Shown here: piece by piece, positions 15,341 to 36,059 of the stretch
Layout of the letters: each line of letters starts with the position of its first letter
Numbering within the stretch: position 1 is the stretch's first letter
DNA from: Microcella alkaliphila
GTDB taxonomy: Bacteria > Actinomycetota > Actinomycetes > Actinomycetales > Microbacteriaceae
DNA: 64,000 bases
Direction: 5' to 3'
Assembly: GCF_002355395.1 (NCBI RefSeq)
Contig: NZ_AP017315.1
Coordinates: 558,001 to 622,000 of the forward strand
Made by a program: the position numbers and the translations under genes
Notes under the pieces: generated by a model
The model's database searches: none
What the model saw: only the letters and a program-made list of their open reading frames with translations
Told to the model about the DNA's origin: nothing

Positions 15341-15755
15341 GCCGTTGCGGCGAACGGTGCGGCTGACAACGCCGCCGGGCGACGTGAACACGGTGCATGA
15401 CTTTCTTGTCGAGCTGTGGCCCGACGTCGATACGGTCTCGAATGTTGACCGCATCAGCATTGAAACGGCGCTCATTGAGCTTGCCGCGAACGTCATGCAA
15501 CACGCCGATAGCGACGGGTCCGGCTTGACGTGCGAGTTCACGGTCGTCGTGAGCGACGACGCGATCGACATGGTGGTGCGCGACACCGGTGAGCCGGGAG
15601 AGATCCGGCTCGTCGGTGCCGAAATGCCTGAGCTTGAGGCCGAGTCCGGTCGCGGCCTCGCCCTGATCTCGGCGCTGGTCGACGTGGTCGCCTACTCGCA
15701 AGAAGACGGGCACAACATCTGGCGGCTGCGCCGGACGCGCACGACAGGCGCCTAA
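15333..15755 (+). CDS. RsbW-like anti-sigma factor ATPase (module 2)
   Basis: A 140-residue stand-alone ATPase of the HATPase_c_2 type with N box ELAANVMQHAD, G1 VRDTGEPGE and G2 ESGRGLALISALVD. It should phosphorylate the STAS protein encoded just before it or bind a sigma factor; which of these cannot be told. It aligns with residues 1-135 of the fusion at 13301 but ends before the GAF and phosphatase parts. ATG 15333 was chosen because it recreates the 8-bp overlap of module 1; ATG 15321 is possible. Confidence 0.87.
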   Translation: MPEPLRRTVRLTTPPGDVNTVHDFLVELWPDVDTVSNVDRISIETALIELAANVMQHADSDGSGLTCEFTVVVSDDAIDMVVRDTGEPGEIRLVGAEMPELEAESGRGLALISALVDVVAYSQEDGHNIWRLRRTRTTGA

Positions 15756-15757
15756 TG

Positions 15758-15784
15758 TCGGGATGCTCGCGGCGAGCATCCCGA
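15758..15784. terminator. Perfect 13-bp hairpin after the STAS module
   Basis: Arms 15758-15770 and 15772-15784 are exact complements with a one-base centre. The stem carries GGGATGCTCGC, i.e. the GGATGC/GCATCC word also seen in the hairpins at 35483 and 59071. It separates the signalling module from sucCD. Confidence 0.65.
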
Positions 15785-15844
15785 TGAATGGTCGCGCGGA
15801 CAATTCCCTCCGCGAACAGGAGTACCCTTGCAGAGGCCGATTTG

Positions 15845-15858
15845 TCTCGACATCGAGA
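15845..15858. promoter_or_regulatory. Palindromic operator before sucC
   Basis: The 14-bp palindrome TCTCGA-CA-TCGAGA lies 65 bp before the sucC start. The same sequence, inverted, lies before icd at 34085-34098, with flanking bases also largely conserved. A binding site for a shared TCA-cycle regulator is inferred; the regulator is not identified. Confidence 0.6.
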
Positions 15859-15923
15859 AATCTCGGGGCATGGTTGACGGCCGCTGACCCCTGTCACTCG
15901 CACGCGGATGGGATGAAAAAAGC

Positions 15924-18061: not shown

Positions 18062-18122
18062 GCGTTCGTGGTGTCATCAGATCGTGACCCTCTCGAGCGA
18101 GGGGGGCGCGCATACTGAGGGA

Positions 18123-18554
18123 ATGACGGATCGGTGGATGCGCGGGGGCGCGACGGGTGCATCCGTTGCGCTTGCGGTGACGCTCGTTTTCACGCTGTCT
18201 GCATGCGCTCCTCCGCGGGCACTCGAATCCGAGTCTGGTTTGCTCATCCCTGTCGCGGGCGAGGACAACGGCATGGAGGCGCTGCTCACCGGCGTCCTCA
18301 TCAGAACGGCCGAGGGGTGTCTGGCGGTGGCAGAGCCGGAGTCCGCGCTTGACTATCGAGTGGTCGCTCCGCCCGCAACGCGGCTGCTCGCTGACGACGT
18401 GATCGACATGCCGGAGTACGGCGAACTCCGGCTCGGCGACGAGGTCGCCTTCGGCGGGGGATGGCAGAGTCCCGACTCGGAGGCGCTCGCCGCCGACATC
18501 CCCGAGGCCTGCGTTGCAGGCGACGAGATCTTCTTCATCAACGCTCAGAGCTGA
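18123..18554 (+). CDS. Hypothetical lipoprotein
   Basis: A 143-residue predicted lipoprotein. A basic N-terminus and hydrophobic stretch lead to lipobox LSAC (Cys28). The mature part has no recognised family; LLIPVAGEDNGMEALLTGVL, an EGCLAV strand and AFGGGWQSPDSE suggest a small beta-rich domain, and a Cys in each of EGCLAV and EACVAG could pair outside the cell. CATACT lies 6 nt before the ATG, suggesting a leaderless transcript. It is convergent with the iclR-type gene. Confidence 0.75.
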   Translation: MTDRWMRGGATGASVALAVTLVFTLSACAPPRALESESGLLIPVAGEDNGMEALLTGVLIRTAEGCLAVAEPESALDYRVVAPPATRLLADDVIDMPEYGELRLGDEVAFGGGWQSPDSEALAADIPEACVAGDEIFFINAQS

Positions 18555-18561
18555 CCCCGGG

Positions 18562-20629: not shown

Positions 20630-21268
20630 ATGAGCACCACCATCAGCATCGACGGATTCACCGCGTGGCTGGATGCGTTCCGCACCCGCGTCACCGAGAA
20701 CAAGGCCTATCTCACTGAGTTGGATTCCGCGATCGGGGACGCCGATCACGGGTCGAACATGGCCCGAGGAATGGCCGCCGTGATGGACAAGGTGGGCGCG
20801 GCGGCGCCCAGCACGGCCGACGAGCTGTTCAAGACCGTCGGCATGACGCTTGTCACGTCGGTCGGTGGTGCGAGCGGGCCGCTGTACGGCACGTTCTTCC
20901 TGCGGTTCGGTATGACCGCCGGTTCAGTCTCGGAGTGCGACGGCGCCGCGTTGGCCGCCGCACTCCGAGCCGGGCTGGACGGCGTGGTCGCCCGCGGCAA
21001 GGCCGAGGCGAACGACAAGACCATGTTCGACGCGATGGCGCCCGCCATCGATGCACTCGACTCTGCTCTGGCATCCGGCGCCTCGCTCGCGGACGCCGTC
21101 GCGGCGGCTCGGGACGCAGCGGCCGCCGGCCGTGACGCGACCGAGCCTCTCGTGGCGCGCAAGGGCCGCGCGAGCTACCTCGGCGACCGCAGCGCCGGTC
21201 ACCTCGACCCGGGCGCCACCTCGACGGCGATGCTGTTCGACGCCCTCGCGGAGGTCATCGCCGCATGA
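20630..21268 (+). CDS. dhaL: Dihydroxyacetone kinase subunit DhaL
   Basis: The ADP-binding subunit, 212 residues, all-helical. The Mg-ADP ligands lie in DSAIGDADHGSNMARG, and VGGASGPLYGTFF and GRASYLGDRSAGHLDPGA are standard family motifs. It transfers phosphate to the DhaK-bound substrate and keeps its ADP, which DhaM rephosphorylates. Strong ribosome binding site GGAGGACACC before the ATG. Its stop overlaps the next ATG by four bases. Confidence 0.95.
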   Translation: MSTTISIDGFTAWLDAFRTRVTENKAYLTELDSAIGDADHGSNMARGMAAVMDKVGAAAPSTADELFKTVGMTLVTSVGGASGPLYGTFFLRFGMTAGSVSECDGAALAAALRAGLDGVVARGKAEANDKTMFDAMAPAIDALDSALASGASLADAVAAARDAAAAGRDATEPLVARKGRASYLGDRSAGHLDPGATSTAMLFDALAEVIAA

Positions 21269-23724
21269 GCTCCGTCGGTGTCGTCGCCGTTTCGCACAGT
21301 CCGGCCCTCGCGGAGGCGGCGATTGCCCTCGCCCTCGAAATGACGGCGACGGGCGCCCCGGCCGTCATCGCTGCGGCGGGCACGGCAGACGGCAACATCG
21401 GCACCGACGCTGCGCGCATCGCTGAGGCGATCGCCGAAGCCGACTCGGGCGACGGTGTCGCCGTGATCATGGATCTCGGCTCGGCCATCATGAGCGCGGA
21501 GCTCGCGCTCGAGTTTGTCGACCCTGACCTCGCCGAGCGCACCCGGCTCGTCGCCGCGCCCTTCGTCGAGGGCCTCCTCGCGGCCGTCGTTCGCGCGGCG
21601 GGGGGAGCCTCGCTCGCCGAAGTCGCGCAAGAAGCATCGGGGGCCCTGCGCCCCAAAACCGACCACCTGCAGTCGCCGACGCCCGATCAGGATGCTGCGG
21701 GCGCGGCGTCGGCGGCCGACGAACCCCCTGCGCCCTCCGACGCGTCGTCGGCCACCGCGACCGTGCGCAATGTCGCTGGTCTGCACGCCCGCCCCGCTGC
21801 GGTCATCGCCGGGGCGGTCCAGAGCTTCGACGCCGAGGTGATGCTACAACGCGAGGACCAGGCTCAGCGCCCACCCGTCTCGGCGGCGAGCCCCATCGGC
21901 ATCGCCACGTTGGCGGCGGGACCGGGCACGGTGGTGCTCATCAGGGCGACCGGACCGCAGGCGGCCGAGGCCGTCGAGCACGTTCGCGCGCTCATCGAGG
22001 AGGGCTTCGGTGAGGAGCTCGCCGAGGGGCAAGCGCCCACCGGCGCCGCCGCACCGACGCCGGCGCGCGTCGACCCCACCCCCACCGGTCCGATCGGGGT
22101 GAGCTCCGGCCGCGTCGTCGGTCCCGCCGTCGTGCTGCGCCGCACGGTCCGCGAGCCGTCCGCCAGCGATCGTGTGCCGGAGGACGCGCGCGACGGGGCC
22201 GTGTCTCTGCTGCGCGAGGCGAGCATCCGCGTGGCCGAGCGGTACCGCGAGCGTGCTGCGAGCGTGACCGGTCAGCGGCGCACCGTTCTCGAGGCGACCG
22301 CCGACATGGCGACCGACCCGACGCTCGTCGGAGGCGCCGAGGCGCTGATTCGCGACGGCGGGCTCACCCCCACCCGCGCGGCATGGCAGGTCTGTGCCGA
22401 GCTCGCCGAGCAGTATCGCGCGGCGGGCGGACTCATCGCCGAGCGCGCGACCGACCTGCTGGATGTGCGCAACAGGCTCATCGCCGAGTTGCGCGGGGAG
22501 GAGCCGCCGGGGGTTCCCGACCGGCGCGAGCCGTTCATCCTGGTGGCCGACGACCTGGCGCCCGCCGACACGGTCGCGCTCGACCCGGCCGTGTGCCTCG
22601 CGCTCATCACCGAACAGGGTGGCCCGACCTCGCACACGGCGATCATCGCCCGCGAATTGGGGCTCCCCGCCGTGGTCGGCTACCCCGAGGCCACAAGCAT
22701 CGTCGACGGCGAACTGCTGCTCGTCGACGGAGACACGGGGGAGGTCGTCGTGCGCCCCGACCAAGCGTCGCAGGCGACCGCGACCGGTGTGATCACTCTG
22801 CCGCCGTTCGAGGGCCCCGGCCAGACGCGCGACGGCCTCCGGGTGCTGCTCGGGGCGAACGTCGGCGCGCCTCGCGACGTGGCGCGCGCCGTCGAGCGGG
22901 GCGCCGAAGGAGTCGGGCTGTTCCGCACCGAGTTCTGCTTCCTCGACCGCGACACCGAGCCGAGCATTGACGAGCAGGTGGAGGCCTACCGCGAGGTGTT
23001 CGACGGCTTCGCCGGTCAGCGGGTCGTCGTGCGCACCCTCGACGCCGGAAGCGACAAGCCACTGCCGTTCCTCACGAACGACGACGAGCCGAACCCTGCT
23101 CTCGGCGTGCGGGGCCTGCGAACCGCCCGGCGACACCCCGACGTGCTCGAGCGGCAGGTGCAGGCCATCGCACGCGCCGCGGAGGGCGCGACCGCCGACG
23201 TGTGGGTCATGGCGCCCATGGTGGCGACGGCCGCCGAGGCCCGCGACTTCGTGACGCTCGCCCGCGGTGCCGGCCTCGCCACCATCGGCGTGATGATCGA
23301 AACCCCCGCCGCGGGGCTCACCGCCGTCGAGGTCATGCGCGAGGTCGACTTCGTCAGCCTCGGCACGAACGACCTCGCCCAGTACACGATGGCCGCCGAC
23401 CGTCAGTCGGGCGACCTCGCCGATCTGGCGAACCCGTGGCAGCCCGCGCTCTTGCGCCTCATCGGCATGATCGGCCAGGCGAGCCGCGACACCTCCGGCA
23501 CGCCCGTCGGCGTGTGCGGCGAGGCGGCGGCCGACCCCGACCTGGCGTGTGTGCTTGTCGGTCTCGGCGTGACGAGCCTCTCGATGGCGGCCCGCGCCAT
23601 CACGCGGGTGGGTGCCCGACTGGGAGACGTCGATCTCGCCGCGTGTCGTCGCGCGGCCGAGGCCGCCATCGGCGCCGCTGACCCGGCCGAGGCGAAGGCC
23701 GCGGCGCGCGCCGCCCTCGGGTAG
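21265..23724 (+). CDS. dhaM: DhaM-HPr-Enzyme I fusion phosphotransferase
   Basis: An 819-residue three-part PTS protein. Residues 1-130 are an EIIA-Man-type DhaM domain with active His11 (VAVSHSPALAEA). After a Pro/Ala linker, about 163-250 are an HPr domain (GLHARPAAV, His174). About 275-819 are Enzyme I: phospho-His457 in GGPTSHTAIIAR, then GLFRTEFCFLDR, VMIETPAA, SLGTNDLAQYTMAADR and the Cys of GVCGEAAADP. It can thus carry phosphate from PEP to DhaL without separate general PTS proteins. The Enzyme I part looks full length, unlike the truncated one of E. coli DhaM. Confidence 0.94.
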   Translation: MSSVGVVAVSHSPALAEAAIALALEMTATGAPAVIAAAGTADGNIGTDAARIAEAIAEADSGDGVAVIMDLGSAIMSAELALEFVDPDLAERTRLVAAPFVEGLLAAVVRAAGGASLAEVAQEASGALRPKTDHLQSPTPDQDAAGAASAADEPPAPSDASSATATVRNVAGLHARPAAVIAGAVQSFDAEVMLQREDQAQRPPVSAASPIGIATLAAGPGTVVLIRATGPQAAEAVEHVRALIEEGFGEELAEGQAPTGAAAPTPARVDPTPTGPIGVSSGRVVGPAVVLRRTVREPSASDRVPEDARDGAVSLLREASIRVAERYRERAASVTGQRRTVLEATADMATDPTLVGGAEALIRDGGLTPTRAAWQVCAELAEQYRAAGGLIAERATDLLDVRNRLIAELRGEEPPGVPDRREPFILVADDLAPADTVALDPAVCLALITEQGGPTSHTAIIARELGLPAVVGYPEATSIVDGELLLVDGDTGEVVVRPDQASQATATGVITLPPFEGPGQTRDGLRVLLGANVGAPRDVARAVERGAEGVGLFRTEFCFLDRDTEPSIDEQVEAYREVFDGFAGQRVVVRTLDAGSDKPLPFLTNDDEPNPALGVRGLRTARRHPDVLERQVQAIARAAEGATADVWVMAPMVATAAEARDFVTLARGAGLATIGVMIETPAAGLTAVEVMREVDFVSLGTNDLAQYTMAADRQSGDLADLANPWQPALLRLIGMIGQASRDTSGTPVGVCGEAAADPDLACVLVGLGVTSLSMAARAITRVGARLGDVDLAACRRAAEAAIGAADPAEAKAAARAALG

Positions 23725-23754
23725 GGCTCGCGCGCCCGTAGGCTCGCGGGCGAC

Positions 23755-24981
23755 ATGACCCGCCGCGCGACCGCCTTCTTCTCCGCCCTCGAGGCGCTGC
23801 TCGTCGTCGCCGCCGGCGCGGGCGTGCCGCTCACCGTGCTCACCGTGATGTGGGCCGTGCAGTTCGAGTTCCAGGTCGACCTCATCGACCTCTGGAAGGC
23901 CGGCGCCATCATCTGGATGCTCGGCCACGGCGTCGCCGTCACCATTCGGCTCGATGCAGAAACGGTCGCGCAGCTGCAGATCGACGGCGCCGGCGACCCG
24001 TTCACCATCACCCTCGCGCTTACCGGATTTCTGCTGATCACCGCCCTCTTGGGCGTGCGGCTCGGACGACGCCTGCGCGAGCACCCCCACCGGATCATCG
24101 GCGAAGTGGTGGCGGTGACCGGGGTGGTGGGGCTCTCGGCCCTCATCCAGTGGCTCGTCGCGAACCCGGGGGCCACCCCCGACCCGGTGCAGGCGACGCT
24201 GTTCCCCGGCCTCGTCTACGGGCTGGGGCTCGCCATCGGCTCGATCGGGGCGACCAACCCGGCGCGCGTGCGGTTGCGCAAGGAGTGGGCGCGCATCCCG
24301 GCCAGCGTTCGGGGCGTCGCCGAGGTTGTCGTGCGTGCCGGTGTCGCGAGCGTCGCGACCGTGGTCGCCGCGGGCGCCCTCGTGACGACGATCACGCTGT
24401 TCGTCGGCTTCACCGACGTGATCGCCCTCTACCAGGGTGTGCAGTCGGGCGTGCTCGGCGGCATCGCCCTCACCCTCGCCCAGCTCGCCCTGCTGCCGAG
24501 CATCGTGATCTGGACGACCAGCTACCTCGCCGGCCCCGGCTTCGCGCTGGGCGTCGGCTCGTCGGTCAGCCCACTCGGGGTGAGCCTCGGGCCCGTGCCC
24601 GCGATCCCGGTGCTCGGCGCGCTGCCCGCACCCGACTTCGCCCCCGGCTTCCTCGTGCTGCTCGTTCCCGTGATTGCGTCGTTCGTCGCGGGCGTCATGC
24701 TGCGCGAGCGCCTGCTCGATGTGCTCGGCCCCGACCGCCGCCCCGAGGGGTGGGCGGCGCTCGCGGGAGTGCTCGCCGGCGTCGTGGCGGGCGCCGTCAT
24801 GGCCGCGCTCGCCTTTCTCGCGTCGGGGGCCGCCGGCCCCGGCCGTCTCGCCGTCGTTGGCCCCGACCCCGTGGAGGTCGGCCTCTGGATGCTCGTCATC
24901 GCCGCCATCACGATCCCGCTCGGCCTGCTCGCCGGGGGAGCGAAGCAGGTGGTGGCCGAGAGGCTCACCGCCAGCCGCTAG
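23755..24981 (+). CDS. DUF6350 multi-helix membrane protein
   Basis: A 408-residue integral membrane protein with about ten helices. It fits the actinobacterial DUF6350 family, whose usual place directly before purN is kept here; the role is unknown. A conserved-looking loop SYLAGPGFALGVGSSVSPLG is visible. TAGGCT (23739-23744) lies 10 nt before the ATG. Its last 35 bp, including the stop, recur exactly at 25573-25607 on the far side of an inserted lipoprotein gene. Confidence 0.85.
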   Translation: MTRRATAFFSALEALLVVAAGAGVPLTVLTVMWAVQFEFQVDLIDLWKAGAIIWMLGHGVAVTIRLDAETVAQLQIDGAGDPFTITLALTGFLLITALLGVRLGRRLREHPHRIIGEVVAVTGVVGLSALIQWLVANPGATPDPVQATLFPGLVYGLGLAIGSIGATNPARVRLRKEWARIPASVRGVAEVVVRAGVASVATVVAAGALVTTITLFVGFTDVIALYQGVQSGVLGGIALTLAQLALLPSIVIWTTSYLAGPGFALGVGSSVSPLGVSLGPVPAIPVLGALPAPDFAPGFLVLLVPVIASFVAGVMLRERLLDVLGPDRRPEGWAALAGVLAGVVAGAVMAALAFLASGAAGPGRLAVVGPDPVEVGLWMLVIAAITIPLGLLAGGAKQVVAERLTASR

Positions 24982-24983
24982 CG
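24949..24983 (+). repeat. 35-bp direct repeat, left copy
   Basis: Covers the last codons and stop of the DUF6350 gene plus two bases. An exact copy lies at 25573-25607. Between them is 589 bp carrying one lipoprotein gene. Confidence 0.95.
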
Positions 24984-25054
24984 ACAATTGCTTCAGATCT
25001 GAGGATGCTCTAACCTCTGAATTGAGGGAGTATCACTCTAGTGATCGGAGCCCA

Positions 25055-25570
25055 ATGATGTCCTTCGTGTTTCGGTGTTGGGCAATCGTGGTGTTCTGCT
25101 GTTTTGCTGTCCCCCTGTTTGCCGGTTGCTCGCCCAACACATCTAGCGAAACACCCCCTGGCGCAGGCGATTCTCCAGGAAGGGAATCACCAGACTCGGC
25201 GGCACGGGAGGAGTGCGCCATCGTCGCCCCCGCGGAACTTCCGAGTGGCGCGCCCGTGGGCGATCCACGCCCCGTTGAGGGGGACGAAGCGGACAGCGGC
25301 GATCGGGTCCAGTGGGGTGAGGGCCTGGATCGGGTTGTTCAAGCTGTCGGCGCCGATGCCCGCACTGCGGCAGGGGAAGGCAATGATGACGTCGACAACT
25401 GGCCCGAATCGGCAGTCGTCCGAGTGGATGGAGCTCCCCGACTCGTTATGCCAGTAGGCGATCCTGGCGAGATACAGATCCACGTGATCATCGAAAACTG
25501 CTACTACCTACACTGGGTTGGCCCGGGCCTCACGATTGAGGAAGCCCGAGACTATGCCGCACGGCTATAG
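25055..25570 (+). CDS. Hypothetical lipoprotein on an inserted segment
   Basis: A 171-residue predicted lipoprotein: signal FRCWAIVVFCCFAVPLF and lipobox FAGC (Cys25), then a Ser/Pro-rich spacer and an acidic mature region ending near VIIENCYYLHWVGPGLTIEE. No family is recognised. The gene is visibly lower in GC than its neighbours, uses codons rare elsewhere here, and lies with its own upstream region between exact 35-bp repeats, so it was probably acquired. Two adjacent ATG codons (25055, 25058) are possible starts; a short palindrome ATCACT-CT-AGTGAT lies at 25032-25045. Confidence 0.75.
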   Translation: MMSFVFRCWAIVVFCCFAVPLFAGCSPNTSSETPPGAGDSPGRESPDSAAREECAIVAPAELPSGAPVGDPRPVEGDEADSGDRVQWGEGLDRVVQAVGADARTAAGEGNDDVDNWPESAVVRVDGAPRLVMPVGDPGEIQIHVIIENCYYLHWVGPGLTIEEARDYAARL

Positions 25571-25572
25571 CT

Positions 25573-25607
25573 GTGGTGGCCGAGAGGCTCACCGCCAGCC
25601 GCTAGCG
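25573..25607 (+). repeat. 35-bp direct repeat, right copy
   Basis: Identical to 24949-24983. It ends in GCTAGCG, which with the next base forms TAGCGT, the -10-like box 7 nt before the purN GTG. The duplication therefore leaves the DUF6350 stop codon on one side and the purN promoter on the other both intact. Confidence 0.95.
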
Positions 25608-25615
25608 TTAAGGGC

Positions 25616-26212
25616 GTGCTGCGGGTCGTCGTTCTGATCTCGGGCGGCGGGTCGAACCTCGCCGCGCTGCTTGACGAATGCGACGCTCCCGACTTCCCGG
25701 CTGAGATTGTCGCCGTCGGCGCCGACCGCGAGGCGGGCGGGCTCGAACACGCTCGACGGCGCGGAATTCCGGCGTTCGTCGTTCCGTTCTCCGAGCATCC
25801 CGATCGCGAGAGCTGGGGCGATGCCCTCGTTGCCGCCGTCGCCGCGCACGAGCCCGACCTCGTCGTGCTGTCCGGGCTCATGCGCCTGCTGCCGCCGCGG
25901 GCCGTCGCTGCCTTCGCCCCGCGGCTGATCAACACGCACCCCGCGTACCTCCCCGAGTTTCCCGGAGCGCACGGCGTGCGCGACGCGCTCGCCGCCGGCG
26001 TCACCGAGACGGGCGCGAGCGTGATCGTCGTCGACACGGGTGTCGACACGGGCGCCATCCTCGCTCAAGAACGGGTGCCCGTGCTGCCCGGCGACGACGA
26101 GGCGACCCTGCACGACCGCATCAAGCCCGTCGAGCGGCGCCTGCTCGCCGATGTCGTGCGCGGCGTCGCCGACGGCACCATCGACCTCACCAGCCCTCGT
26201 TCATCCGCCTAA
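25616..26212 (+). CDS. purN: Phosphoribosylglycinamide formyltransferase
   Basis: Transfers formyl from 10-formyl-THF to GAR, step 3 of purine synthesis. The 198 residues carry [15 protein letters not shown] at the start and the catalytic segment [21 protein letters not shown] (Asn-His) with [13 protein letters not shown] holding the active Asp. The start is GTG with TAGCGT 7 nt upstream. purH follows after 11 bp with a strong ribosome binding site. Confidence 0.97.
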
Positions 26213-26223
26213 GAAGGAGCCCC

Positions 26224-27825
26224 GTGGCCGCCCCCACTCCCAACGCTGCCGACTACCGCCCCCGCGACGCCGTGGCCGTGCGCCGCGCCCTCATCTCGGT
26301 GAGCGACAAGACCGGGCTGGTCGAGCTGGCCGCCGACCTCGTCGAGCAGGGCGTCGAGCTCGTCTCGACCGGGTCGACCGCCGCCACGATCGCCGCCGCG
26401 GGCCACCCGGTCACGGAAGTGTCCAAGGTCACCGGGTTTCCCGAGTCGCTCGACGGCCGCGTGAAGACCCTGCACCCCGCCGTGCACGCCGGGCTGCTCG
26501 CCGACCTGCGCCTCGAGCGGCACGAGCGGCAGCTCGCCGAGCTCGGCTTCGCGCCCTTCGAGCTGGTCGTCGTCAACCTCTACCCGTTCGTCGAGACCGT
26601 CGCCTCGGGGGCCGAGCCGCTCGCGGTCGTCGAGCAGATCGACATCGGCGGCCCCGCCATGGTGCGCGCGTCGGCGAAGAACCACCCGAACGTCGCGATC
26701 GTCGTCGACCCGGCCGACTACGCCCCGGTTCTGGATGCTGTGCGCACCGGCGGCACGGACCTCGCCTTCCGCACACGCCTCGCCGCGAAGGCCTTCGCGC
26801 ACACCGCCGCGTACGACGCGGCGGTCGCGAGCTACCTGGCGGAGCGGGTCGCGGAGCAGGACGCGGACGGCGCGAGCGGGACTGCGGGGCTGCCCGCGAG
26901 CATCCGCATCGCCGTGGACAAGGCCGCCGACCTGCGGTACGGCGAGAACAGCCACCAGGCGGCGGCGTTGTACCCGGTCGTCGGCAGCGCCGGCATCGCC
27001 CAGGCGACGCAGCTCGGCGGCAAAGAAATGTCGTACAACAACTACGTCGACGCCGACGCCGCCCTGCGCGCCGCGTTCGACCACGATGAGCCAGCAGTGG
27101 CGATCATCAAGCACGCGAACCCGTGCGGCATCGCCGTCGGCGAGACGATCGCCGCCGCGCACGCGGCCGCCCACGCCTGCGACCCCGTGTCGGCGTTTGG
27201 CGGCGTGATCGCCGCGAACCGTATCGTCACCCGCGCGGCCGCCGAGTCGATCGCGCCGATCTTCACCGAGGTCGTCGTCGCGCCCGGCTTCGAGCCCGGC
27301 GCCCTCGAGGTGCTGCAGGCGAAGAAGAACCTGCGGCTGCTGCAGTTGCCCGCGAGCTTCGCGCCCGAGGCGCTCGAGCTGCGCCAACTGTCCGGCGGCT
27401 TCCTCGCCCAGCGCCCCGACCGTCACTTCGCCGACGCCGCCTCCTGGCAGCTCGTCTCGGGCGAGGCGGCCGACGAGGCGACGCTCGCCGACCTGGCCTT
27501 CGCCTGGCGGGCCTGCCGCGCCGTGAAGTCGAACGCGATCCTGCTCGCCGCGGGCGGCGCCTCAGTCGGCGTCGGCATGGGTCAGGTCAACCGCGTCGAC
27601 TCGTGCCACCTCGCCGTGACGCGCGCGGGGGAGCGGGCCCGCGGCTCGGTCGCCGCCTCCGACGCGTTCTTCCCCTTCGCCGACGGCCTGCAGGTGCTGA
27701 TCGACGCGGGCGTGCGCGCCGTCGTGCAGCCCGGAGGGTCAGTGCGCGACGAGGAGGTCATCGACGTGGCCCAGGCGGCCGGCGTGACGATGTACCTCAC
27801 GGGCGAGCGCCACTTCTTCCACTGA
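26224..27825 (+). CDS. purH: AICAR transformylase / IMP cyclohydrolase
   Basis: Bifunctional enzyme for the last two steps to IMP, 533 residues. Residues 15-145 are the cyclohydrolase (MGS-like) domain with [15 protein letters not shown] and [15 protein letters not shown]. The rest is the transformylase domain with [23 protein letters not shown] and the terminal GMTRYLTG-like [13 protein letters not shown]. The GTG follows AGAAGGAGCCCC. Its substrate AICAR-phosphate is ZMP, the ligand class of the riboswitch at 45680. Confidence 0.97.
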
Positions 27826-28017
27826 TCCCGCGCATCCCGGTCACCGGTTCTCAGCCTGTTTCGGCGCGCCGGGAATTGTGGCTGGCGCCCGCGAAGTTGA
27901 GGCGATAGTCTGCAAGGCTGCCCGCGCCCCGGCACCCCCGGAGGCGCGTCGGCGGCACGAAATCCACCACCGCAATGCGCCACGAGCGCGCCGCGCCGAA
28001 CCACGAGGAACACCGTC

Positions 28018-29967
28018 GTGTCGACCGCTGAAACATCCGCCGCCGCGCCCCGCAAGAGCGAACTGAGCACGTTCCGCGCCATCGCGCGGATCTACCCGTA
28101 CGCGAAGCCGGCGGTGCCGTGGATCATCGGGGGCATGATCGCGGCCCTCGCGGCCGGCGTCGTCAGCCTGCTCATCCCCATCGTGTTGCAGGGCCTCGTC
28201 GACGGACCACTCGCCGACGGCAACCCGGTCGGCATCTGGCCAGCCGTCGCCCTCGTTCTCGTGCTCGGCGTCGTCGAAGCCGCGATGATCATGCTGCGCC
28301 GCTGGCTCGTGCTGACCCCCGGCACGCACATCGAGGCGCGCATGCGCAACGGCCTCTACGCGAAGCTGCAAGACCTGCCCGTCGCCTTCCACGACCGGTG
28401 GCAGTCGGGCCAGCTGCTGTCGCGTGCCGTCAGTGACCTGAACCTCATCCGCCGCTGGATCTCATTCGGCCTCGTCCTCCTGATCGTCAACATCATCACC
28501 ATCCTCATCGGCATCGTCGTGCTGCTGAACTGGAGCGTCTGGCTCGGCCTGCTCTTCTTCGTCACGTCCATTCCGATCTGGGTATACGGCTATGTGTTCG
28601 AGAAGAAGTACTCGGTCATCGCCCGTCGCGTTCAAGACCAGCAGGGCGACCTGGCGACCGCCGTCGAAGAGAGCGTGCACGGCATCCGCGTGCTCAAGGC
28701 GTTCGGCCGAGGCAAGCATTCGCTGCTCAAGTTCGCCGATCAGGCCGAAATGCTGCGCACTCTCGAGATCCGCAAGGCAAAAGCGATCGCGGGCATCTGG
28801 TTCTGGCTCGTGCTCATTCCCGACGCGGCATTCGCCCTGTCGCTGCTTGGCGGCGTCGCGCTCGCGGCCGCCGATCAGCTCACGGTGGGCCAGCTGCTCG
28901 CCTACTTTGCCACCGCAACGGTGCTGCGCTTCCCGATCGAGTCGATCGGCTTCCTGCTCGCCATGACGTTCGACACCCGCAGCGCCGTCGACCGCTTCTT
29001 CGACGTCATGGACGAGGTGAACACGATCACCGACCCCGAGCATCCGGCGACCGTCGAGCGGCCGGTCGGCCGCCTCGTCTTCGAGGATGCGCGATTCCGT
29101 TACCAAGATGCGCCCGCGACCCAGCGTGACCAGCTCGACGGCATCCAGCTCGAGCTGGAGCCGGGTGAGACGATGGCGCTCGTCGGCATCACGGGCAGCG
29201 GCAAGACCACGCTGACCGCTCTGACGACGCGACTGTACGACGTGACGGGCGGGCGCATCCTGCTCGACGGCGTCGACATTCGCGAGCTCACGCGCGAGGA
29301 GCTGCGTCGCCGCATCGCGATGGCGTTCGAAGACGCGACGCTCTTCTCCTCCAGCGTGCGCGACAACGTGCTGCTCGGCCGCCCCGAGTTCGCGAGTGAC
29401 GACCCCGCGGTCGTTGCCGAGGCCGACCGCGTGCTCGCCGAAGCCCTCGACATCGCGCAGGCCGGCTTCGTCTACGACCTGCCCGACGGAGCCGACACGG
29501 TCGTGGGGGAGGAGGGCATGAGCCTGTCGGGTGGCCAGCGCCAACGCCTCGCCCTCGCGCGCGCCGTTGCTGCCAAGCCCGACGTGCTCGTGCTCGACGA
29601 CCCGCTGAGCGCACTCGACGTCGACACCGAGGCGCTCGTCGAGGCGGCCCTGCGTCGCGTGCTCGCGACCACCACCGGCCTCATCGTCGCCCACCGCCCG
29701 TCGACCGTGCAGATGGCCGACCGCGTCGCGCTGCTCGAGGAGGGGCGCATCACCGACGTCGGCACGCACAGCGAGCTGCTCGCCCGCAACGAGCACTACC
29801 GCTACGTCATCTCCTCTCTCGAAGACGAAGAGCTGGCGCAGGCCGAGCGCGACGAGCGCGAGCTGCGCCTCGCGGAGGAGACATCCCGCGTGCAGGAGGC
29901 CACGGTGCGCGAGAGCCGCGTCATCGACAAAGACGGATTCGAACGAGACGGGGAGGTGAAGCGATGA
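28018..29967 (+). CDS. ABC exporter half-transporter A (degenerate site)
   Basis: A 649-residue fused permease and ATPase: six membrane helices (about 35-320), then a nucleotide-binding domain with Walker [11 protein letters not shown], signature [14 protein letters not shown] and Walker [13 protein letters not shown]. Asp replaces the catalytic Glu after Walker B, and the Q-loop region reads MAFEDATLF with Glu at the Gln position. In heterodimeric exporters this pattern marks the non-hydrolysing partner. Substrate unknown; such pairs export drugs or lipids. GTG start after GAGGAAC; overlaps the next gene by 4 bp. Confidence 0.93.
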
Positions 29968-31772
29968 GCGTTCTCGGTGTCGCCGGCGAAGAACGCGACA
30001 ACTACACGAAAGACGAGTCGCGCCAGATTCGCCAACGCTCACTGCGCCTGCTCGGCTCGCTGCTGCGCCCCGTGCGCGGCCGCATCGTGTTCGCGATGGT
30101 CGTCGTCGTGTTCTCGACGGCGCTGCAAGTTGCGGGCCCGGCGCTGATCGCGCTCGGCATCGACCGGGGCTTGCCGGCCGTCGCCAACAACGGCGATTGG
30201 ATGCCCATCGCCCTCATCGTCGTCGGCTTCGTTTTCGCCGCCCTCGTCGGCGCCGCAACAATCGCCTGGTACCAGGTGATGAGCGCGCGCATCAGTCAGG
30301 CGATTTTGCTCGACCTGCGCAAGCGCGTCTTCCTGCACACCCAGAATCTGAGCCTCGAGTTCCACGAGTCGTACACCTCGGGCCGCATCATCTCGCGCCA
30401 GACGAGCGACCTCGACTCCATTCGCGAGCTGCTCGACTCGGGCATCAACCAGCTCGTGTCGGGCCTGCTCTATATGGGGTTCACGGCGGGCGCGCTGATC
30501 CTGCTCGACGCCCCGAGCGGGCTCGTGCTGGCCGCCGCGCTCATCCCACTGCTCATGCTGACGCGCTGGTTCCAGGTGCGCTCGCAGAAGATGTTCCGCC
30601 TGACGCGCGTCGCATCCGCCCGCCTGATCGTGCATTTCGTTGAGACGATGACGGGCATCCGTGCGGTGAAGGCGTTCCGAAAGGAGCCGCGCAACGCGCG
30701 CGAGTTCGGCGACCACGTCGAGAGCTACCGCGACGCCAACGCGCGCGTGATCCGACTCTTCGGCATCTTCGACCCGGGTCTCGTGCTGATCGGCAACGTC
30801 GCGGTCGCCGCGGCCCTGCTGTGGGGTGCTTTCCGGGTTGTCGACGGGTCGCTGCAGATCGGCGTGCTCATTGCCGTGCTGCTGTACGTGCGCAACTTCT
30901 TCGGCCCCGCCGAGGAGATGGCGATGTTCTACAACTCGTATCAGTCGGCCGCCGCAGCTCTGGAGAAGATCTCGGGCGTGCTCGAAGAGGCGCCGTCGGT
31001 GCCCGACCCCACGACCCCCATCGACCTGTGGCAGGCGAAGGGGCAGGTGCGGTTCGAGAGCGTGCGGTTCCAGTACACCGACGAGACCGTCGTGCTGCCC
31101 GACTTCGATCTCGAGATCCCGGCGGGTCAGACGATCGCGCTCGTCGGCACGACCGGTGCGGGTAAGTCGACGCTCGCGAAGCTCATCGCGCGCTTCTACG
31201 ACCCCACCGATGGACGCGTCACGCTCGACGGCGTCGACCTGCGGAAGCTCCACCCGAAAGACCTGCGGCGCGCGATCGTCATGGTGACGCAGGAGGCCTA
31301 CCTCTTTTCGGGAACCGTGGCTGACAACATCGCCCTCGGCAAGCCCGACGCCACGCACGAGGAGGTCGAGGCGGCAGCGCGCGCCGTCGGAGCGCACGAG
31401 TTCATCACCTCGCTGCCGAACGGCTACGACACCGACGTGAACAAGCGCGGCGGGCGCGTGTCGGCGGGGCAGCGGCAGCTGATCTCGTTTGCGCGCGCGT
31501 TCCTCGCCGACCCGACGGTGCTCATCCTGGACGAGGCGACGGCCTCGCTCGACATCCCGAGCGAACGGCTCGTGCAGGAGGCGCTGCAGACTCTGCTCGC
31601 CGACCGCACGGCGGTGATCATCGCTCACCGACTGTCGACCGTGGCGATCGCCGACCGGGTACTCGTCATGGAGCATGGCCGCATGATCGAAGACGGCAGC
31701 CCCGCCGAGCTCATCGCCGGGGCGGGCAAGTTCGCGCAGCTGCACGCCGCCTGGCGCGAGTCGCTCGTGTAG
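29964..31772 (+). CDS. ABC exporter half-transporter B (consensus site)
   Basis: A 602-residue half-transporter, partner of the gene it overlaps (ATGA). Membrane domain about 40-330. The nucleotide-binding domain has Walker [13 protein letters not shown] loop [10 protein letters not shown], signature [14 protein letters not shown] and Walker [13 protein letters not shown] with the catalytic Glu present. The signature has Ala for the usual first Gly. Together the two halves make one asymmetric exporter with one competent ATP site. A long N-terminal tail ([19 protein letters not shown]) precedes the first helix. Confidence 0.94.
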
Positions 31773-35512: not shown

Positions 35513-35534
35513 GTGCGTTAGCGGTAGCTTGCGT

Positions 35535-35554
35535 GATAATACCCCTGGGGGTAT
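35535..35554 (+). promoter_or_regulatory. CsoR/RcnR-type operator on a GATAAT promoter
   Basis: ATACCCC-TG-GGGGTAT (35539-35554) matches the C/G-tract inverted repeat bound by CsoR/RcnR-family metal or persulfide sensors. It overlaps a good -10 GATAAT (35535-35540), so binding would block transcription of the genes downstream. No csoR-like gene lies in the window. Confidence 0.65.
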
Positions 35555-35603
35555 ATTGATCGACGAGGCGTCGACCACGCCACACTGATCGAAAGGACCG
35601 CCC

Positions 35604-35723
35604 ATGTGCTCACCCATCCGTTGCTCAAGCTGCGGCAAGGTCACCTGGACCGGCTGCGGCCAGCACGTCGACGAGGCGCTCGCCCCGTTCTCGGCCGACG
35701 AGCGCTGCACCTGCGCGAACTGA
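35604..35723 (+). CDS. 39-residue Cys-rich mini-protein
   Basis: A very small protein beginning MCSPIRCSSCGKVTW and ending ERCTCAN, with seven Cys including CSSC and CTC spacings and one His in CGQHVD. The pattern suggests zinc or other metal binding. Clear ribosome binding site GAAAGGAC 5 nt before the ATG. It is the first gene behind the metal-type operator at 35539 and precedes a P1B ATPase, so a metal or sulfur role is inferred. Similar mini-proteins occur in other actinobacteria as far as I recall; no function is known to me. Confidence 0.75.
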   Translation: MCSPIRCSSCGKVTWTGCGQHVDEALAPFSADERCTCAN

Positions 35724-35998
35724 CGATTGCGGAGGCGCGCGCCGCGGCGTTAACCGCGCTCACCACCACCGCCGCGGGCGACAGTCTGTGCACGCTGTCG
35801 CGCGAGCGACTGCCCGCGGCGAAGTATCACGAGGGCGCGGTCGCTGCACTCGGCGATGCCCTGCGCGCCGCACGCGCCGATATTGCGCCGCCCGAGCCTG
35901 CGGCGTGGGGCGCCCAGTGGGACCACCTCGCCGAGCGCGACGCAGGCTGGCGCGCCTACCTCGCCGGCGGCCGCGACGCTCTCGCGCGCCTCGCCTGA
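35720..35998 (+). CDS. Hypothetical protein, probable CTG start
   Basis: A 92-residue helical, Ala-rich protein starting LTIAEARAAALTAL, with DSLCTLSRERLPAAKYHEGA in its middle and WDHLAERDAGWRAYLAGGRDAL near its end. No family recognised. The plausible start is CTG at 35720, overlapping the mini-protein stop as CTGA; the GTG at 35606 would run through the mini-protein in another frame and looks like noise. If real, it is translationally coupled to the mini-protein and part of the metal operon. Confidence 0.5.
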   Translation: MTIAEARAAALTALTTTAAGDSLCTLSRERLPAAKYHEGAVAALGDALRAARADIAPPEPAAWGAQWDHLAERDAGWRAYLAGGRDALARLA

Positions 35999-36059
35999 CG
36001 CGCCTCAGGCAAGCCTGCCCTTGCTGGTGATCGCTGCGCGCACCGAGTAGACCTGACCC

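Follow-up and report, generated by a model that had tools for sequence, protein, structure and literature searches.

The window analysed here, a 64-kb stretch of the chromosome of Microcella alkaliphila (64,000 nucleotides), contains a gene for a DUF6350 membrane protein that is followed by purN, and the two are separated by a single gene with the same 35 bp on either side (Table 1). We refer to this 35-bp sequence as the hinge. Its two copies are exact direct repeats at a spacing of 624 bp, and the description in the sequence-only reading of the locus, a gene end repeated exactly around an insert that carries one low-GC gene, was borne out in coordinates and composition. The GC content of the insert is 0.604 vs. 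0.740 in the DNA to its left (22001–24948) and 0.726 in the DNA to its right (25608–28400). No other exact direct repeat in the window is as long as the hinge, the runner-up measuring 18 bp. Among exact repeats spaced 150–5000 bp apart, it also ranks first over 464 kb sampled from this chromosome (the window and 20 stretches of 20 kb), ahead of one of 27 bp. A second copy of the insert DNA was not found in the window genome.

Table 1. Features of the DUF6350–purN junction in the window.
Feature	Position	Strand	Evidence
DUF6350 membrane-protein gene; last bases form the left hinge copy	23755..24981	+	PF19877, E 8e-78
Left 35-bp hinge copy, holds the DUF6350 stop codon	24949..24983	+	Exact direct repeat
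589-bp insert, GC 0.604	24984..25572	+	Missing from the empty site of M. alkaliphila AC4r
Candidate -10 box TAACCT of the lipoprotein gene	25011..25016	+	Alignment: same place as TAGCCT in M. putealis CV2; inferred
Lipoprotein-like gene, 171 aa, no family match	25055..25570	+	Homologues; no Pfam or NCBIfam match at E ≤ 1
Right 35-bp hinge copy, directly before purN	25573..25607	+	Exact direct repeat
-10-like box TAGCGT, 7 bases 5' of the purN GTG	25603..25608	+	Sequence; promoter role inferred
purN, phosphoribosylglycinamide formyltransferase, GTG at 25616	25616..26212	+	TIGR00639, E 1.7e-55

Of the 21 insert-free genomes of the genus, 18 have a TANNNT box whose first three bases are the stop codon of the DUF6350 gene, and in these 18 genomes 9 or 10 bases separate the stop from the GTG of purN. 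Twelve of these boxes read TAGCCT; in the remaining three insert-free genomes the stop lies 23, 46 or 50 bases from the GTG. The hinge TANNNT resembles a -10 box from which a leaderless purN would be transcribed. A scan for promoters and terminators, which covers the sigma-70 consensus only, found none and gives the -10 reading no support; it found no promoter for the lipoprotein gene either, and the candidate box of that gene comes from the alignment with M. putealis. Since the stop codon and the putative promoter share bases, a plain insertion at this junction would break one of them, and an insert is harmless only if the hinge is duplicated. In the window, the end of the DUF6350 gene and the -10-like box before purN are both present twice and, as had been proposed from the sequence, neither neighbour is broken: the right copy does place TAGCGT 7 bases before the purN GTG, where it may serve as a promoter element. 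The only Rfam match (23953–24037) falls below its gathering score (25 vs. 50 bits) and is not relevant.

Inspection by eye suggests that the 171-aa product of the inserted gene, a putative surface-anchored lipoprotein, carries a signal peptide and, as a lipobox-like motif, FAGC. The AlphaFold2 model of the product, built from an alignment of three sequences only, had a mean pLDDT of 73, with residues 1–50 below 50. A Foldseek search against the PDB gave no match at E ≤ 0.001 (best 2.3e-3, TM 0.31), and therefore we claim no function for this protein. The protein was present in 3/26 same-genus genomes and in 4/99 relatives, the fourth of which (G042) was weak, with a stop inside. A draw of 398 genomes of the family returned the window's own genome and four weak matches (E 8e-5 to 8e-4, one with stops), which we took as chance; the two Microcella homologues described below were not among the matches listed in that draw. 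In a metagenome search, one protein besides the query was found (P0002, 64% identity over 74% of the query, on one 12.8-kb contig), a search of genome contigs gave two loci, and a search of viral contigs gave no match. On these counts, we rejected the idea that the lipoprotein belongs to a wider mobile family.

The sequence-only reading had asked what the same junction looks like in related genomes, and an empty site with a single hinge copy does exist in the sister genome, M. alkaliphila AC4r (G006). There the hinge differs by two bases from that of the window and no insert is present, so that the segment has two direct repeats at its base in the window and one in the empty form. In M. putealis CV2 (G014), of the same genus, a homologous lipoprotein gene lies between the same two neighbours, and the ends of its insert match those of the window. 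These neighbours are located at the ends of two contigs: on C3, the DUF6350 gene is followed by a diverged hinge copy and the first part of the lipoprotein gene, and on C6, the second part of the lipoprotein gene is followed by the other hinge copy and purN. Two further exact copies of the final 94–95 bases of C3 exist in the M. putealis genome, and an insertion sequence therefore most likely interrupts the lipoprotein gene there. In the census of 26 same-genus genomes, the window included, the insert occupied the site in two (the window and M. putealis), and in 21, AC4r among them, DUF6350 was followed by purN within 50 bases with the segment absent at this place. The other three genomes were left out, one as its contig begins at purN (G025) and two for lack of a match across the junction (G008, G015).

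The two carriers differ in the state of their hinge copies (0/35 differences between the copies in the window, 7/35 in M. putealis). The left copy of M. putealis has lost its TAG, which reads TCG, and the DUF6350 stop comes one codon later, while the right copy retains TAGCGT. Such decay of the left copy would be expected once each hinge copy has a single job. The proposal that the insertion is recent is supported in one part only: the identical copies of the window, beside the diverged pair of M. putealis, suggest that the present repeat pair is recent, but an insertion peculiar to the window genome is not supported, since M. putealis has a homologous gene with matching ends.

The distribution of the segment could go back to a single ancient insertion before the window genome, AC4r and M. 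putealis diverged, with one loss in AC4r through slippage or through recombination of one repeat with the other. In the window lineage, gene conversion, or expansion of the 624-bp unit followed by its collapse, would then have held the two copies alike, and the lipoprotein gene would evolve fast. The DUF6350 tree of 23 genomes, which joins the window with AC4r (98/99) and then with M. putealis (100/100) on a long stem, favours such an insertion, as do the insert ends shared by both carriers; the purN tree of 23 genomes has the same branching, though the window–AC4r pair is less well supported in it (89/60). Deletion between repeats is, moreover, a known process according to a study of variable segments (PMC2884548). 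However, the simplest form of this history, one insertion on the stem with plain vertical descent and one loss in AC4r, fits poorly with three results: the identical window copies, the grouping of hinge copies within genomes and the saturation of the lipoprotein gene. When a duplication at the split was simulated without conversion, with a simple model of 35 positions that includes no selection, identical window copies arose at frequencies of 0.0001–0.025 over four rates. At hinge positions 2 and 19 the copies sort by genome, and in the same simulations two or more such positions appeared at a frequency of 0.001 to 0.028. An old insertion would thus need extra conversion to account for the 0 vs. 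7 differences and for the two within-genome positions.

As to saturation, the lipoprotein genes of the window and M. putealis agree at 15/59 four-fold sites, below the 0.30 expected at random, and a single old insertion demands an unusually fast gene here. The composition-corrected four-fold identity of 28 conserved frames around it, two or so of which (e.g., 15541–15903) are possibly shadow frames and not genes, ranged from 0.04 to 0.86 and was above 0.04 in 27/28. The exception is the gene at 20630–21265, which lies after a dhaK-like gene and which we take to be dhaL; with a corrected identity of 0.04 between the window and M. putealis, it is also saturated, unlike the 27 other frames. Since a flanking gene can be as saturated as the lipoprotein gene, which speaks for the old insertion, saturation alone is no proof of a separate gain. 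The strongest competitor of the reading that we prefer is one old insertion whose copies underwent gene conversion, and we regard it as possible, if on the unlikely side. Taken together, the three results favour the view that the segment was renewed in the window lineage, or that its hinge copies at least were.

The DNA around the junction may have a mixed history of its own. Between 24.1 and 30.4 kb, limits that were picked after seeing the data, differences peculiar to AC4r numbered 238 vs. 118 peculiar to the window, and outside these limits the numbers were 538 vs. 546, as if 24100–30400 were a recombination mosaic, a local signal that we count in favour of exchange. We also considered an imported tract and set the idea aside, as no clean edge lies at the junction; that the window's immediate insert flanks resemble those of AC4r counts against exchange.

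Islands of the integrase type insert at gene 3' ends, where the end of the gene is duplicated and restored around the insert. The window insert is like them in its attachment-like duplication at a gene 3' end, and in a cargo-only cassette, integrated at such an attachment site by a site-specific recombinase acting in trans, the 35-bp gene-end identity, the restored neighbour and the scarless empty site would correspond to attL and attR. The genomes do encode tyrosine recombinases (PF00589) at other places, and these could act in trans (G000 has 4 matches, AC4r 4 and M. putealis 3). On the other side, the insert carries only one gene, none of the four PF00589 matches on the chromosome lies in the window, and no match to the serine recombinase family (PF00239) was found in the window. 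None of the 13 inverted pairs listed (minimum 12 nt) joins the insert ends, so terminal inverted repeats of this length, as in an insertion sequence or transposon, are missing. The left insert end also lacks a conserved inner arm: the first 30 insert bases of the two carriers agree at 9/30 positions, about chance, whereas the 40 bases before the lipoprotein start agree at 28/40. A second 35-mer with up to nine mismatches was not found in the 464 kb sampled, and the AC4r homologue of the lipoprotein gene has no gene-end repeat in the stretches compared. An attachment-core structure noticed by eye within the 35-mer, CGAGAGGCT-CACCGCC-AGCCGCTAG with arms matching at 7/9, was dropped, as about 0.4 such matches would be expected by chance on a hand estimate. 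Taken together, these results make a site-specific cassette moved in trans, as suggested by the sequence-only reading, improbable.

The other origin suggested there, repair of a staggered break, fared no better. If the window lineage had captured foreign DNA in a single event, at such a break or by template switching, 35 bp of the target could have been duplicated, and a target duplication without any element machinery might be what such an event leaves behind. However, the same gene with the same ends in M. putealis means that the capture was not a one-off event in the window lineage. The Ku family (PF02735), on which end-joining capture would depend, had no match in any of the three genomes, in a search whose control matched in 1/14 named genomes, B. 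subtilis. We consider capture in the window lineage quite improbable, although template switching may have produced the first event at this site.

The AC4r homologue of the lipoprotein is 44% identical to that of the window and is encoded at another place than the DUF6350–purN junction, in a variable segment at the junction of a TetR gene and purA. In AC4r, where the two edges lie on separate contigs, the 500 bases that surround the TetR edge have no 12-base word in common with the stretch of up to 700 bases that precedes purA, and a second repeat-flanked site at this junction was accordingly rejected. As this homologue sits elsewhere with no shared 12-mer in the stretches compared, the hinge repeat seems to be a property of the site and not of the lipoprotein gene family. 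The TetR and purA genes themselves (L041 3264–6528, L054, L083, L084) are adjacent in the window genome and have different inserts between them in AC4r and M. putealis, which would make this junction another variable site beside a purine gene.

Over the roughly 40 kb in which the window and AC4r are comparable, further segments are present in one genome and absent in the other. A second single-gene segment, of 473 bp, lies at 18085–18557; it is cleanly absent from AC4r and has no flanking repeat, and the product of its gene (18123–18554) resembles a small lipoprotein. At 35525–36002, 478 bp of the window are replaced by 20 bp in AC4r. Elsewhere (L074 11883–12730), the motif GTCAACAACTCAGGACTAacgc and its reverse complement recur as pairs in gene gaps, like a dispersed intergenic repeat; the 18-base core of this motif is absent from the window.

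A title-level literature search found no title describing the DUF6350–purN junction, a description of which may exist elsewhere, and within the literature searched, DUF6350 appeared as a word only in a study of Cutibacterium acnes. Among known systems, the closest are the microdiversity loci of E. coli, S. aureus and S. pyogenes, for which PMC2884548 reports that direct repeats flank 10–18% of small variable segments and that 66–94% of these repeats are under 30 bp. Like those loci, as described there, the window has a short segment that varies between strains, is bounded at its base by direct repeats and has a cleanly deleted counterpart in a relative; it differs in the length of its repeat, in the stop-codon/promoter hinge and in having a whole gene as the segment. 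Homology-facilitated illegitimate recombination, treated in the same source (PMC2884548), would resemble the present case in that incoming DNA is anchored by homology to the recipient, but here the same 35 bp stand at both joints and homology lies on both sides.

The explanation that we prefer, with a probability of about one half, is that the locus is a repeat-bounded accessory segment of a single gene that strains of this Microcella clade gain, lose and swap by homologous recombination, and not a self-mobile element. In an exchange of the RecA type, pairing would take place through the core genes shared on both sides and also through the two 35-bp copies of the hinge. If these copies recombined with each other, the lipoprotein gene would be deleted with no scar, and if an incoming segment paired with the lone hinge of an unoccupied site, two like copies would be renewed; such an exchange would explain both the scarless loss and the renewed likeness of the copies in the window. 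Against this explanation, no donor strain was found. More doubtfully, we suggest that the hinge is a natural cassette port, through which at least two Microcella lineages took up divergent lipoprotein alleles independently of each other, with no recombinase dedicated to the task. As the stop codon and the promoter have bases in common, two working hinges would remain after any strand exchange in which an incoming lipoprotein segment pairs with the hinge.

On our best reading, the locus is of a known kind, an accessory gene bounded by repeats, with an instructive design in its stop-codon/promoter hinge. A repeat-bounded gene of this sort may mimic a fresh mobile insertion, even though its history is more likely one of ordinary recombination. 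As a compact case from nature, the junction illustrates how a place with no spare bases can take in a gene by way of a duplicated stop-codon/promoter stretch, the copies of which can then specialise.
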